The notes under the pieces were generated by a model, which saw only the letters and a program-made list of their open reading frames with translations, searched no databases and was not told where the DNA came from. The translations under genes were made by a program, and so were the position numbers. A stretch of 44,508 bases of DNA, from assembly GCA_002011745.1 (NCBI GenBank), contig MTOU01000026.1, positions 1 to 44,508 on the forward strand. The letters are read 5' to 3'. Shown here piece by piece: positions 1,408-23,087 of this stretch. The stretch's first letter is position 1. Each line of letters begins with the position of its first letter. Origin of the DNA: Nitrospirae bacterium JdFR-85 (GTDB lineage Bacteria > Nitrospirota > Thermodesulfovibrionia > Thermodesulfovibrionales > JdFR-85).

Positions 1408-1411
1408 TTTA

Positions 1412-1420
1412 TGATATAAT
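1412..1420 (+). promoter_or_regulatory. extended -10 promoter of the MscS gene, probably leaderless
   Basis: TGATATAAT is a perfect extended -10 (TGnTATAAT) lying between the upstream stop codon and the ATG at 1430. Only 9 nt separate the hexamer from the ATG and no Shine-Dalgarno is present, so the transcript would begin about 3 nt before the start codon. The same 11-mer (TATGATATAAT) at the same distance precedes the HDOD gene at 22224. Confidence 0.6.
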
Positions 1421-1429
1421 AGAATACCT

Positions 1430-2485
1430 ATGCAAGAGTTGATTGAGATAAAAGATATAATAGTGCCTATTCTTGTCATCTTTTTCACCTTAACTGTACT
1501 TCTTATCGTAAGAGCTTTTCTAATACGTTTTCTACAAAAGTTCGCAAAAAAGACAGAGAGCAAGATTGATGATATTATAATAAAGGCAACAAGATTCCCG
1601 TCTATACTCTGGGCCTTTGCAATTGCCCTCTATATTGGTATTGCTATATCTCCAATCCCTGAAAAGTTTGGGTTTTACATTAACAGAAGTATATTTGTAT
1701 TTCTCATTCTTTCAATAACGATTGTTGCTGCTAACCTTTCAAGCAAACTCTTCAGAGAGTATTTAAACCGTGGAGTAGTTCAGATGCCTGCCACAGGACT
1801 TGTTAATGCTACTGTGAAAGGGCTGATACTTATAATAGGATTTCTCTTTATCTTAAGTGGTCTTGGTATCTCTATTACTCCTCTGATAACAGCTCTCGGA
1901 GTTGGTGGATTGGCTGTTGCCTTGGCTCTTCAGGATACTCTGGCGAATCTCTTTGCAGGGATTCATATAATTATGGAACGTAGCATCCGGGTTGGGGATT
2001 TTATAAAGCTTGAGACAGGAGAGCAGGGATATGTTGATGATATAACCTGGAGGGCGACAAGGATAAGAATGCTCCCTAATAATACCGTCATTATTCCCAA
2101 CAGTAAACTCGCTCAGAGTATTATCACAAACTATTATCTTCCTGAAAAACGCATGTCTCTGCTTATTCCTATTGGGGTGAGCTATTCCTCTGATCCTGAA
2201 CATGTGGAAAGGGTGCTGATTGAGGAGACAATGAAGGCAGCAGATGAGATACCAGGACTTCTGAAGGAACCCAAGCCTTTCGTCAGGTTTATCCCTGGAT
2301 TTGGAGAGAGTTCCTTGGACTTTACTCTCATATGCCAGGTAGCTGAGTTTGTTGACCAGTACCTGGTGCAACATGAGTTGAGGAAGAGAATATTCAAACG
2401 CTTCCAGCAAGAAGGAATTGAGATACCATTCCCCCACAGAACAGTATACCTTAGAGAAGAGAAAGATTGGGATAAATCGCTTTAA
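1430..2485 (+). CDS. MscS-family small-conductance mechanosensitive channel
   Basis: This 351-aa membrane protein has hydrophobic N-terminal helices followed by the MscS pore helix, visible as the glycine/alanine-rich GVGGLAVALALQDTLANL. The beta domain then begins at RVGDFIKLE and includes the conserved W-R-x-T-R-I-R and IPNS elements. Such channels open when membrane tension rises and release solutes after hypo-osmotic shock. The cytosolic C-terminal domain is complete. It sits 22 bp after the glycosyltransferase and 10 bp before the DUF5752 gene, so it may share their transcript as well as having its own promoter. Placing a release valve inside a solute-synthesis cluster fits osmotic balance. 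No ribosome-binding site precedes the ATG. Confidence 0.9.
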   Translation: MQELIEIKDIIVPILVIFFTLTVLLIVRAFLIRFLQKFAKKTESKIDDIIIKATRFPSILWAFAIALYIGIAISPIPEKFGFYINRSIFVFLILSITIVAANLSSKLFREYLNRGVVQMPATGLVNATVKGLILIIGFLFILSGLGISITPLITALGVGGLAVALALQDTLANLFAGIHIIMERSIRVGDFIKLETGEQGYVDDITWRATRIRMLPNNTVIIPNSKLAQSIITNYYLPEKRMSLLIPIGVSYSSDPEHVERVLIEETMKAADEIPGLLKEPKPFVRFIPGFGESSLDFTLICQVAEFVDQYLVQHELRKRIFKRFQQEGIEIPFPHRTVYLREEKDWDKSL

Positions 2486-6632: not shown

Positions 6633-7877
6633 TCACCTTTGTGCCTGTAGAGTTTGAGGAACACCTGATAGTTTATTCATCATGTATTGTAGACTTTTTA
6701 CCCTTTTTGAGAAGATATCCATTCTGTTTTTCGGAACAGCCTTGGCTCTTGGCAGAGACATTTTAAGGGGATTTACAAACTTTCCAAAACGTTTTACCCT
6801 ATAGTCCAGATGGGGACCTGTAGCCATTCCTGTAGCCCCAACATAACCTATAATCTCTCCCTGTTTTACTTTCTTCCCTCTTCTTATACCCTTTTTTATC
6901 CTTGAAAGATGTCCATAATAGGTCTCATAACCATTGGGATGGCGTATTATCACACATTTACCATAATGACCCTTCCAACCCGCGAACTTCACTGTACCAT
7001 CGCCTGCTGAAGATACAGGAGTTCCGTAGGGTGCGGCATAATCCACACCCAGGTGGGGTCTATAAATCTTGAGTATAGGATGCTTTCTACGATAAGAAAA
7101 GCGGGAACTAATATATCTGAATCTAAGAGGAGCCCTTAATAATGCCTTCTTGAGAGATCTTCCTTTGCTGTCAAAATAGCCGGGTTTGCCGTCTATTTCG
7201 AATCTGTAAGCCTCATAACGCCTGCCATTGTTAACAAATTCAGCAGCAAGAATGTTTCCAAAACCTTTAAATACATTATCGAGCCACAGTTCCTCTACAA
7301 GCATCTTGAAGCTATCTCCCTCTCTCAATTCTGTTACAAAATCAATCTCTGACTCAAAGATATCTGCAAGTTCGAATGCAAGCCTAAGATGTTCTCTTGT
7401 CTCTCCTACTGCATATATGAGATTGTCTTTTATAGTGCCTGACAGAAGAGTATATCTCTTTGTATAAGGTACCTCTACTAATTCTGCATAAAAGCCATCT
7501 TCACCTCTGTAGACATTCAAATACTTGTTGTCGTTTACGGAATACTTAAGGCTTTCTATCATTTCTTTAGATTCGGCCTTTTTAGTAATAATTATGTAGG
7601 ATCTGCGAGGTTTTACCTTTGCAAGATTGAACACATCTTTTGAGGCATTGTATATTTCCTGTAATTCTGATAATGCCAGTCCTTCCTTTTTGAAAATATC
7701 ATAAAAGGTTTCACCTCTTCTCACAAGTCCTGCAATCTCTCTTTTATGTTCACTTCTGTCGTGTTCTATAATTAAGGAGAGCTGTTTATCTGCAGAGCCG
7801 CGTTCTGAAGGAGCTATCTGGTAAAAGAGAAGGACTACAATTGCCAGAAGCCCTACAAGAAAAGAAGACTTTTTCAT
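6633..7877 (-). CDS. M23 family cell-wall endopeptidase (MepM/Csd3-like)
   Basis: The ATG at 7877 gives a 414-aa protein starting MKKSSFLVGLLAIVVLLFY, a signal anchor. The upstream in-frame TTG at 7901 would overlap the -10 box and is rejected. After the anchor come a LysM/OapA-like region (RRGETFYDIFKK) and a C-terminal M23 metallopeptidase with H-x-x-x-D in HLGVDYAAP. It should cut peptide crosslinks in periplasmic peptidoglycan. The second zinc motif reads GPHLDYRV, with Asp where many M23 enzymes have His (HxH); I believe this variant recurs in related proteins. The gene is convergent with the trehalose cluster (24 bp apart) and divergent from the VanZ gene. Confidence 0.88.
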   Translation of the reverse strand: MKKSSFLVGLLAIVVLLFYQIAPSERGSADKQLSLIIEHDRSEHKREIAGLVRRGETFYDIFKKEGLALSELQEIYNASKDVFNLAKVKPRRSYIIITKKAESKEMIESLKYSVNDNKYLNVYRGEDGFYAELVEVPYTKRYTLLSGTIKDNLIYAVGETREHLRLAFELADIFESEIDFVTELREGDSFKMLVEELWLDNVFKGFGNILAAEFVNNGRRYEAYRFEIDGKPGYFDSKGRSLKKALLRAPLRFRYISSRFSYRRKHPILKIYRPHLGVDYAAPYGTPVSSAGDGTVKFAGWKGHYGKCVIIRHPNGYETYYGHLSRIKKGIRRGKKVKQGEIIGYVGATGMATGPHLDYRVKRFGKFVNPLKMSLPRAKAVPKNRMDIFSKRVKSLQYMMNKLSGVPQTLQAQR

Positions 7878-7884
7878 GTGGTTT

Positions 7885-7914
7885 ATTATATTTATTTGCA
7901 AAAACTTTTTTCAA
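7885..7914 (-). promoter_or_regulatory. promoter of the M23 peptidase gene, probably leaderless
   Basis: On the minus strand, TTGAAA (7909-7914), an 18-nt spacer and a perfect TATAAT (7885-7890) lie just before the ATG at 7877. Only 7 nt separate the hexamer from the start codon and no Shine-Dalgarno fits between them. Confidence 0.65.
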
Positions 7915-11841: not shown

Positions 11842-12453
11842 TTAAGTTGAGCTTTCTGTCAATACAATGGCCTTAAGTCCTTCATTTCTTGTTATTTTTA
11901 TTGCCATATTTTCTGCCTCTGCTCTACTCTTAAACTTACCAACCCTCACTCTGTAGAATTTTTTGTCTCCTCCAGTCTCTACTATTCTTACTGTATAACC
12001 CTTCTTCTGTAATCTCCTTTTAAGGGCTTCTGCTTCAGATGAGATTCTGAAAGCACCGACCTGAATGGTATAGTAAACCCTTTTTGTTATTTTCTTTTCT
12101 TTTTTTTCTATACTCTTTTCTTTCTGTTCAGTCTTTGGAACTTCTGTAACTACTTTTGGAATCTCTGAAACTATCTCTTCCTGCTCTACTGTCTTACTGT
12201 CAAAGATTTTAGGCTCTTCTGTTTTGATACTTTCAGGTTCAGCCAGAGCAGGTATCTCCTCTTCTGCCTTTGATTCCATAGGAGTATATACTTCCATCTT
12301 TTCCTCTGATACTAATTCCTCAGAAACCTGAGACTTACCCACTATATATCCAAGGGTGAAACTAAATGTACTTACCAGAATAATAAAACCAATTAATAGT
12401 GCCTTGTCTGAAAACAGCCCCATGGGTATCTTATTATAAAATTTCATCTTCAT
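11842..12453 (-). CDS. SPOR domain membrane protein
   Basis: The 203-aa protein has one transmembrane helix near residues 18-40. A low-complexity Glu/Lys/Pro/Val-rich linker spans about 45-125. A C-terminal SPOR domain begins at YYTIQVGAFRISSEAEAL and contains YRVRVGKFKSRAEAE. SPOR domains bind denuded peptidoglycan glycan strands, often at the division septum. The topology implies a periplasmic SPOR domain tethered to the inner membrane. Its ATG overlaps the queA stop (ATGA), so translation is probably coupled. It could be FtsN-like, but the family is too variable to claim orthology. Confidence 0.9.
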   Translation of the reverse strand: MKMKFYNKIPMGLFSDKALLIGFIILVSTFSFTLGYIVGKSQVSEELVSEEKMEVYTPMESKAEEEIPALAEPESIKTEEPKIFDSKTVEQEEIVSEIPKVVTEVPKTEQKEKSIEKKEKKITKRVYYTIQVGAFRISSEAEALKRRLQKKGYTVRIVETGGDKKFYRVRVGKFKSRAEAENMAIKITRNEGLKAIVLTESST

Positions 12454-18361: not shown

Positions 18362-18733
18362 TTAAAATCTTATTCCTTTTTTCTTCAGAATATCAAGCTC
18401 CAGTCCTGCTGCATCTAAAAGTCTGACAATCTTATTTCTGGGGATAATATTAAATATAAATAGTACCAACACAAGGAGAAAAAGCCCTCCTTTAAACTGT
18501 AGCCCCCACCCTGTAATATTAATAAAAAAGAGAATGAGAAAGACATAACCAAGATAAAGGCTCCTTTCATAAGAGGTATCAAGGATTCTCTTCAATTCCA
18601 GAAATAGAGGTTTTTCTAACTCTGGGAAGTCCTCAGGAGAGAGTTGAGCCAGGACCTTTCTCCTTTTGACAAAAAGCAGGATAATAACTACCCCTGCCAC
18701 CAAGTATACTATACTCTCCAGATTCAGATACAT
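18362..18733 (-). CDS. hypothetical small membrane protein
   Basis: I do not recognise this 123-aa protein. It has an N-terminal helix (about residues 7-22) followed by a charged segment. Two more helices then lie close together (about 58-75 and 79-96), and the tail is basic. The pattern suggests an inner-membrane protein with a cytosolic middle loop. The coding frame is clean and its start is preceded by a perfect TATAAT only 5 nt away, with no Shine-Dalgarno. It is a single gene, convergent with serS and divergent from the tRNA-Ala gene. Confidence 0.65.
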   Translation of the reverse strand: MYLNLESIVYLVAGVVIILLFVKRRKVLAQLSPEDFPELEKPLFLELKRILDTSYERSLYLGYVFLILFFINITGWGLQFKGGLFLLVLVLFIFNIIPRNKIVRLLDAAGLELDILKKKGIRF

Positions 18734-18738
18734 AATAA

Positions 18739-18744
18739 ATTATA
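18739..18744 (-). promoter_or_regulatory. -10 box close to the start of the small membrane-protein gene
   Basis: A perfect TATAAT on the minus strand ends 5 nt before the ATG at 18733. A convincing -35 at normal spacing is not seen. If used, the transcript would start at about the A of the ATG; this is the weakest of the leaderless cases. Confidence 0.35.
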
Positions 18745-21143: not shown

Positions 21144-22208
21144 ATGTTAATCTGGACTACTCCTGAATTAAAGGAATTAATTGGGAATGACTTTCCTCTT
21201 AAACTCTGCGATAGAGAGGATATAAAAGGGGATTTCCTTAGAAATGCATCACTGAATGATGGTGCAGTTATTCCTGCAGAAGAGGATTATCTTGAATTTA
21301 TTGCGCGTGTAAAGGCTAATGGTATAGAAGGTCCTATAATCTTCATTTCTTCAGGGGATTTTGAAGTCTCAGAAGAACTCTATTCTTACAATGCCATATA
21401 TTTTGATAAAGAGAAAGTAGACCCTTTATGGCTGCGAAGGCTGCTAAGATTTATCTTTAAAATTGCTTTGAGTAGAGGAATACCCGATATACATGTCAAG
21501 CCACCTGAATTCTCTACTGAAAAGCCTTCTGCAGACCGGCCTGTTGTGAATTCTACAAGAATAAGTGAAGTTATCAATTATATTATAGAAAAAGACATTT
21601 CCATTATAATATCTTTTGAGATTCCTGAAAAAGACAGGGCCGTTACTGTAAGAGGTGTTTGCAGGCTTAAGAAAGATGAGAAGGGTTTAAAACTCTATCA
21701 CTTCAGACCTGCATTGATTATAAAGGGCATGAAAAAAGATGCCTCTATTAAGACAGTTCTTCCTTACAAGGATACTGCCTATGAAACAACCATAATAATT
21801 AAAGAAGTGGGTGATCGTGAGGTTGTTGTATCAATTCCTGATTTTCTGCTGGTAGAGAGAAGGAGACATGTGAGGGTGGTCCCAAGTCCTCATAAGCCTG
21901 TAAGGTTATATATACTTATTCCTGGTGAGGAGACAATCTCTCCAGAAGTAGTTGATATTAGTCAGAGAGGGATAGGGTTTATAACTCCAAGGGAACTAAG
22001 GGTTAATGATGTCTATGCCTTCACCATTGTTCTTCCAGAACCTGAGGAGATTATTCTGAGCTATGGAATAATAAAGTATAAGGGTACTGTCTCTGCAGGC
22101 TACAGATATGGGGTTGAACTGAAGATTCATCCTAAGGATGAGGAGATAATTGCTCAGTATATAACAAAGAGAGAAGTAGAGATAATTGAGTTACTGAGAA
22201 ACCTATGA
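21144..22208 (+). CDS. PilZ domain protein, putative cyclic-di-GMP receptor
   Basis: The 354-aa protein ends in a PilZ domain (about residues 236-345). It has both cyclic-di-GMP binding motifs: R239-R240-R241-H-V-R244 and D271-I-S-Q-R-G276. The middle (about 125-235) looks like a YcgR-N-type beta domain. The first 110 residues resemble a degenerate receiver fold but lack recognisable phosphorylation residues. It is predicted cytosolic. PilZ proteins commonly link cyclic-di-GMP to motility or exopolysaccharide, and the flagellar genes nearby favour motility; that is inference. A TAAAAT lies 6 nt before the ATG with no strong ribosome site, another possible leaderless start. The HDOD gene follows by 15 bp. 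Confidence 0.85.
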   Translation: MLIWTTPELKELIGNDFPLKLCDREDIKGDFLRNASLNDGAVIPAEEDYLEFIARVKANGIEGPIIFISSGDFEVSEELYSYNAIYFDKEKVDPLWLRRLLRFIFKIALSRGIPDIHVKPPEFSTEKPSADRPVVNSTRISEVINYIIEKDISIIISFEIPEKDRAVTVRGVCRLKKDEKGLKLYHFRPALIIKGMKKDASIKTVLPYKDTAYETTIIIKEVGDREVVVSIPDFLLVERRRHVRVVPSPHKPVRLYILIPGEETISPEVVDISQRGIGFITPRELRVNDVYAFTIVLPEPEEIILSYGIIKYKGTVSAGYRYGVELKIHPKDEEIIAQYITKREVEIIELLRNL

Positions 22209-22214
22209 TATAAT
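22206..22214 (+). promoter_or_regulatory. extended -10 promoter of the HDOD gene, probably leaderless
   Basis: TGATATAAT is a perfect extended -10 whose TGA is also the stop codon of the PilZ gene. The hexamer ends 9 nt before the ATG at 22224 and no Shine-Dalgarno fits, so the mRNA would begin about 3 nt before the start codon. Confidence 0.55.
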
Positions 22215-22223
22215 CTCCTGATT

Positions 22224-23087
22224 ATGGAAAGAGAAGAGATTAAACGAAGAGTGTATTCAAAAATAGATGAGATTCCTACCCTGTCAGCAGTTCTTACTAA
22301 GTTGCTGAACCTTATAGAGAACAAACGGTGTGGTAGCCGGGATATAGCCGATGCGATCTCCCATGATCCTGTACTCACATCAAAGGTTCTTAAGGTGGCA
22401 AACTCTGCCTACTATGGATTCCAGGGTAGAATCACCAGTCTGACAGAGGCTGTAACACTTTTGGGATTTAATATGATCCGATCTATTGCATTGTCTATGA
22501 ACCTCATAAAGACACTCTCTTCTGGCAAAAGTTTTAAGACCTTCTCTGAGAAGGATATCTGGATACACAGCCTTACAGTTGCAACAGCAATGCAGGAGCT
22601 CTCCAAACAATATAATAGAGACTACAGTAGACAGGAATATGTATTCATAATTGGTCTTTTGCATGATATTGGAAAGATCATATTTGACCAGTTCTTTACT
22701 GAACTATTTGAGGCTGCTATCAGAGAGAGTTTTGAGAAAGGTTATGAGCTTTATGTAGCAGAGAGAAACATCATCGGAATTGATCACGGTGAGGTAGGAG
22801 GTATGCTTTTGAAGAGATGGAATTTCCCTGATGTGATAGTCTCTCCTATTGCATATCATCATTCTGAAAAGGTTCCCAAGAGGATTGATCCTGTAATGAT
22901 TTCATTACTTAAACTGGCTGATTCAGTTGCCCTCTCTTTTTATAAGGGTGATACTTCAGAACTTTCTGATAAATGCGCAAAAGAGCTTGAGTATCTCGAA
23001 ATGGAAGAGACAGTGATACAGGAACTTATAGAATACTTGGAAGATTCAAGGGACAGAATCATGGACTTCTTTAATGCTATAAAATAG
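22224..23087 (+). CDS. HDOD domain signalling protein
   Basis: The 287-aa protein is an HDOD domain (about residues 15-215) with VANSAYYGFQGRITSLTEAV, the central family landmark, and a LLHDIGKIIFDQF HD-like segment. HDOD proteins are related to HD phosphohydrolases but usually lack the full metal site; this one keeps an H-D pair and AYHH. They are cytosolic regulators often linked to cyclic-di-GMP, DNA damage or motility. It follows the PilZ gene by 15 bp and has its own extended -10. Its tail overlaps the converging GH13 gene by 11 bp. Confidence 0.9.
   Translation: MEREEIKRRVYSKIDEIPTLSAVLTKLLNLIENKRCGSRDIADAISHDPVLTSKVLKVANSAYYGFQGRITSLTEAVTLLGFNMIRSIALSMNLIKTLSSGKSFKTFSEKDIWIHSLTVATAMQELSKQYNRDYSRQEYVFIIGLLHDIGKIIFDQFFTELFEAAIRESFEKGYELYVAERNIIGIDHGEVGGMLLKRWNFPDVIVSPIAYHHSEKVPKRIDPVMISLLKLADSVALSFYKGDTSELSDKCAKELEYLEMEETVIQELIEYLEDSRDRIMDFFNAIK

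Follow-up and report, generated by a model that had tools for sequence, protein, structure and literature searches.

Leaderless genes in bacteria are marked by -10 (TA-like) boxes placed next to the start codon, and a survey of such genes described a TG extension of the box in low-GC genomes as well as orthologs that differ in initiation mode (Zheng et al., 2011; PMC3160421). How bacteria translate mRNAs whose AUG is 5'-terminal or nearly so has been reviewed (PMC9031893), and leaderless mRNAs are still translated in the presence of kasugamycin (PMC4929434). The text of Zheng et al. (2011) names neither Nitrospira nor Thermodesulfovibrio, and we found no account of leaderless genes in the literature on Nitrospira, Nitrospirae, Thermodesulfovibrio or Leptospirillum.

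We analyzed a stretch of 44,508 nt, referred to here as the window, for which a sequence-only reading had proposed that a subset of genes routinely begins translation without a leader. That reading rested on an 11-mer, TATGATATAAT, before two genes and on TATAAT boxes before three others. The features concerned, with SD denoting a Shine-Dalgarno sequence, are as follows.

1410-1420, + strand: extended -10 element (TATGATATAAT) of the MscS gene, ending 9 nt before the ATG
1430-2485, + strand: gene for an MscS-type mechanosensitive channel (351 aa; Pfam MS_channel domains), without an SD
6633-7877, - strand: M23 peptidase gene (Pfam Peptidase_M23), without an SD
7885-7890, - strand: -10 box TATAAT of the M23 peptidase gene, 7 nt before the ATG at 7877
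12433-12438, - strand: TATAAT within the VanZ-like coding sequence (11842-12453), dropped from the set
18362-18733, - strand: gene of 123 aa without an SD, with orthologs in five relatives
18739-18744, - strand: -10 box TATAAT of this small membrane protein gene, 5 nt before the ATG at 18733
22204-22214, + strand: extended -10 element (TATGATATAAT) of the HDOD gene, separated from the ATG by 9 nt
22224-23087, + strand: HDOD-domain gene (287 aa; Pfam HDOD), without an SD

The only two exact copies of TATGATATAAT in the window were located at the spacing that had been claimed for them, with exactly 9 nt between each copy and an ATG (1430 and 22224). The expectation is 0.15 copies, and two copies were reached in 1 of 100 dinucleotide shuffles. 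As also claimed, the MscS, HDOD, M23 and 18733 genes lack an SD while gpgS and flgM have one, and the M23 and 18733 boxes were found at the proposed 7 and 5 nt. Both window 11-mers carry the TGn before TATAAT that characterizes an extended -10. The whole genome contains 13 copies of TATGATATAAT, compared with four of the reversed pattern used as a control. An ATG-led open reading frame begins 3-9 nt downstream of six of the 13 (L003, L006, L007, L011 and the two window sites), an SD-led start lies 27-30 nt downstream of two others (L002 and L005), and the remaining copies are distant from starts, intragenic or undecided. TATGATATAAT is thus a consensus extended -10 of this genome (TnTGn-TATAAT), used by leadered and start-proximal promoters alike.

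The sequence TATGnTATAAT can also be read as a two-codon mini-ORF, ATG-nTA-TAA, before the real start (1411-1419 and 22205-22213 in the window, and in L035 upstream of MscS), and at HDOD the ATG of this mini-ORF shares bases with the TGA that ends the upstream gene. A longer motif common to MscS and VanZ, TATAATnnnATACCTATG, was also considered and rejected, since it showed no genome-wide enrichment (11 copies versus 9 of the reversed pattern).

TATAAT itself occurs 76 times in the window against 46 expected; because the window is AT-rich, a lone TATAAT is weak evidence and the case is carried by the position of the boxes across the genome. The count of -10 distances had been set beforehand as the test of the proposal, and we applied it to 33 stretches (660 kb) of the same genome, chosen without regard to the motif, in which gene starts were called by an uncurated codon-usage script. 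A -10 hexamer with at least five of six matches ends 5-9 nt before the start in 38 of 242 SD-less genes, compared with 5-11 genes for each other 5-nt block, and perfect TATAAT is found there 17 times versus 0-3 times in the other blocks. The anticipated peak is thus present, and SD-less genes account for nearly all of it. At 6-9 nt there are 17 perfect sites, where the frequency at positions 12-45 of these upstream regions predicts 4.35, and the peak is absent from internal in-frame ATGs (1.1 perfect TATAAT at 6-9 nt). The signal drops sharply beyond 9 nt.

Starts with a proximal box have further properties in common. An SD accompanies only 3 of 41 of them, versus 278 of 482 other starts (p=8e-11); in SD-led genes the -10 boxes stand mostly from about 18 nt outward, as expected of leadered mRNAs. 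Proximal boxes precede 18 of 90 divergent genes, compared with 12 of 267 genes that follow a co-directional gene at short distance (p=2e-5). The TGn extension is present at 11 of 41 proximal-box starts and at 26 of 482 other starts at the matched position, and both the T at -5 and the TG that precedes the box are enriched. After background subtraction, the start-proximal class comprises roughly 30 of 523 genes (~6%, or about 1 gene in 16), which is an estimate from scripted starts.

Similar patterns were observed in relatives. The sister genome G001 shows the same peak, with 17 perfect boxes at 5-9 nt among 252 starts. In samples of more distant genomes the peak was smaller and lay at 5-6 nt for G027 and G036 and at 5-8 nt for G021; G030, G005 and G008 were thin. 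In whole-genome counts for a selection of genomes, the ratio of TATAAT-N5..8-ATG to TATAAT-N26..29-ATG was 1.25-1.68 for eight of the nine families tallied from the same order and 1.03 for the remaining one; three other families of the phylum gave 1.05-1.32. Of 45 ortholog pairs between our samples and those of G001, the pairs for SmpB and a penicillin-binding protein have leaderless-like starts in both genomes, and five pairs have one in a single genome. A box ending at 9 nt precedes 8 SD-less genes in our sample and 7 in that of G001; the corresponding numbers are 4 and 3 for a box at 8 nt, and 2 and 1 for one at 10 nt. This second 9-nt cluster is seen in the genus and is barely present in G027, G036, G021 and G030; the numbers are small, and a second -10 mode at 9 nt is suggestive. 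Taken together, the peak, the exclusion of SDs, the enrichment at divergent genes and the conservation across species support the proposal that a subset of genes routinely starts in a leaderless or near-leaderless manner.

For M23, TATAAT lies 5-8 nt before the ATG, without an SD, in 15 of 15 scorable family sequences, which are not independent because the genomes are related. A sixteenth sequence, unscored by the script, showed on inspection a box 6 nt before its first ATG. In an anchored alignment the hexamer and the following A are invariant and most adjacent columns vary. Outside the family, three of four orthologs are SD-led and none of the four has the box. For the 18733 gene, the Pfam search returned no match and conservation of the promoter was not clearly seen among the few orthologs. 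In three of these orthologs (L225, L226 and L227), the ATG follows a strong terminator-like hairpin (GGAGAGGG...CCCTCTCC) by about 10-20 nt, with no SD and no clear -10 between the two.

In G001, MscS retains the arrangement TATGTTATAAT-N9-ATG with a different 9-mer, and among the close orthologs compared only this sister species keeps the 9-nt design. The MscS orthologs of G004, G006, G013 and G003 have an SD, which in three of the four lies within the end of the upstream gene, and the SD-led starts of these relatives fall within one or two codons of ATG 1430. Between close relatives, MscS apparently switched its predicted initiation mode, from SD-coupled to near-leaderless. In other genera of the family (L038, L039 and L053), the MscS start overlaps the end of the upstream gene and is preceded by an internal GGAGG; the window has at 1380-1430 a short promoter-bearing spacer between the two genes, and the GGAGG of the relatives reads GAAGAGG. 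The extended -10 of HDOD overlaps the stop codon of ORF 21144-22208, the PilZ-domain gene just upstream. In further family genomes, the TATAAT before HDOD stands at 6 nt in two, stands at about 13-14 nt in two and is missing from two.

Two parts of the sequence-only reading did not stand. It had placed a TATAAT 9 nt before an ATG of VanZ, which proved to be an internal codon: relatives retain the start at 12453, where the gene overlaps the stop codon of its predecessor, and the codons spanning the TATAAT are conserved (KFYNKIP here, KFYHKIP and similar in relatives), which rules out VanZ as a leaderless gene. It had also assigned the leaderless genes to envelope and signalling functions. Predicted membrane proteins make up 11 of 38 proximal-box genes versus 169 of 485 others (p=0.6), and the Pfam matches (among them SmpB, a TsaD-family protein, TrmO, Cas1, an amidohydrolase, phosphoglycerate mutase, YchF, LysR and a ketoacyl synthase) spread over translation, tRNA modification, CRISPR, nucleotide, lipid and carbon metabolism, regulation and wall synthesis. 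Such a class is not supported by these counts and this spread, with signalling assigned from names only and no control set. Zheng et al. (2011; PMC3160421) likewise reported a lower leaderless proportion in the cellular-process and signalling categories.

The promoters of these genes are very probably of the ordinary sigma70 type, have a -10 box that stops 5-9 nt short of the start codon, and direct leaderless or near-leaderless initiation. With the usual sigma70 geometry, the first RNA nucleotide lies about 7 nt after the -10 box. Because the box, often TnTGn-extended, ends so near the start codon, RNA polymerase would initiate at the AUG or no more than about 4 nt before it: boxes at 5-7 nt would yield transcripts that begin at or beside the AUG, and a box at 9 nt would leave about 3 nt of leader. 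The mRNA would then be too short at its 5' end for an SD, and the ribosome would recognize the terminal or near-terminal AUG directly. The position of the boxes, with its SD exclusion, divergent-gene enrichment and conservation, is directly observed, and from it we infer the RNA 5' ends and the ribosomal mode. By this geometry the MscS transcript is expected to start near 1426-1427, and MscS and HDOD would be near-leaderless and not strictly leaderless because a 9-nt spacing gives a leader of about 3 nt. Operon transcripts may carry both genes as well, because their starts lie 22 and 15 nt, respectively, behind co-directional genes.

That proximity, at most 22 nt in each case, also favors the reading in which the MscS and HDOD boxes are not working promoters, and the genes are translated from longer operon transcripts through coupling to the upstream gene, with TATAAT present by chance in AT-rich DNA. 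The frequency of TATAAT in the window and the coupling of MscS to its upstream gene behind an internal GGAGG in other genera point the same way. Yet neither gene has an SD for coupling, the genome-wide peak argues against chance boxes, an exact extended -10 occurs twice at equal distance against so low an expectation, and G001 retains the MscS box despite its changed following 9 nt, which together make this reading unlikely.

We give very little credence to the view that the AT-rich element acts in RNA, as a site for ribosomal protein S1 or an A/U-rich enhancer of a leadered mRNA. S1 binding has been noted as a possible cause of the AT bias that non-SD genes show between about -20 and -10 (PMC5397173), but a positioned hexamer with TnTGn, the enrichment at divergent (first) genes and the sharp drop past 9 nt do not fit such a role. 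Miscalled start codons, with the real starts elsewhere behind normal leaders, are just as improbable as a general explanation: VanZ is one such case, but the HDOD start falls on the same residue in six family orthologs, the MscS starts agree within one or two codons, and in every relative a conserved signal-like segment follows the start of M23. Within the preferred reading of start-proximal promoters, it is also a long shot that the genus has two discrete leaderless geometries, with leaders of ~0-1 nt and ~3 nt (for a -10 box 5-7 or 9 nt away from the AUG), and that in the 9-nt class the TATGnTATAAT mini-ORF (ATG-nTA-TAA) lets read-through ribosomes terminate and reinitiate at the real AUG. 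If true, a single element would serve both transcript types.

Near-leaderless initiation thus appears to be a conserved minor mode beside SD-led initiation in a bacterial order for which we found no description of it in the literature, and MscS exemplifies an apparent change from SD-coupled to near-leaderless initiation among close relatives. Gene-start prediction and promoter searches in this group need to allow for -10 boxes right before the start codon. Many of the boxes described here differ from the extended -10 promoters (TRTGn-TATAAT) that occur in Bacillus in standing directly before a start codon, although TATGATATAAT matches TRTGnTATAAT exactly. The mechanism of the start-proximal promoter is already known (Zheng et al., 2011), and what we describe is one more lineage that uses it. 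Our genes have in common with the leaderless genes of that survey a -10 a few nucleotides before an SD-less start, a restriction to a minority of genes, a switch between SD-led and leaderless orthologs and the TG extension, and differ in the second cluster at 9 nt, seen in one genus. A start-proximal -10 and direct initiation at AUG, predicted here from sequence alone, are likewise shared with the leaderless transcriptomes of Mycobacterium and Deinococcus-Thermus; in those groups, however, about 20-40% of genes are leaderless (PMC3160421), compared with ~6% here, where the box is a near-consensus TATAAT and the SD is the main mode of initiation.
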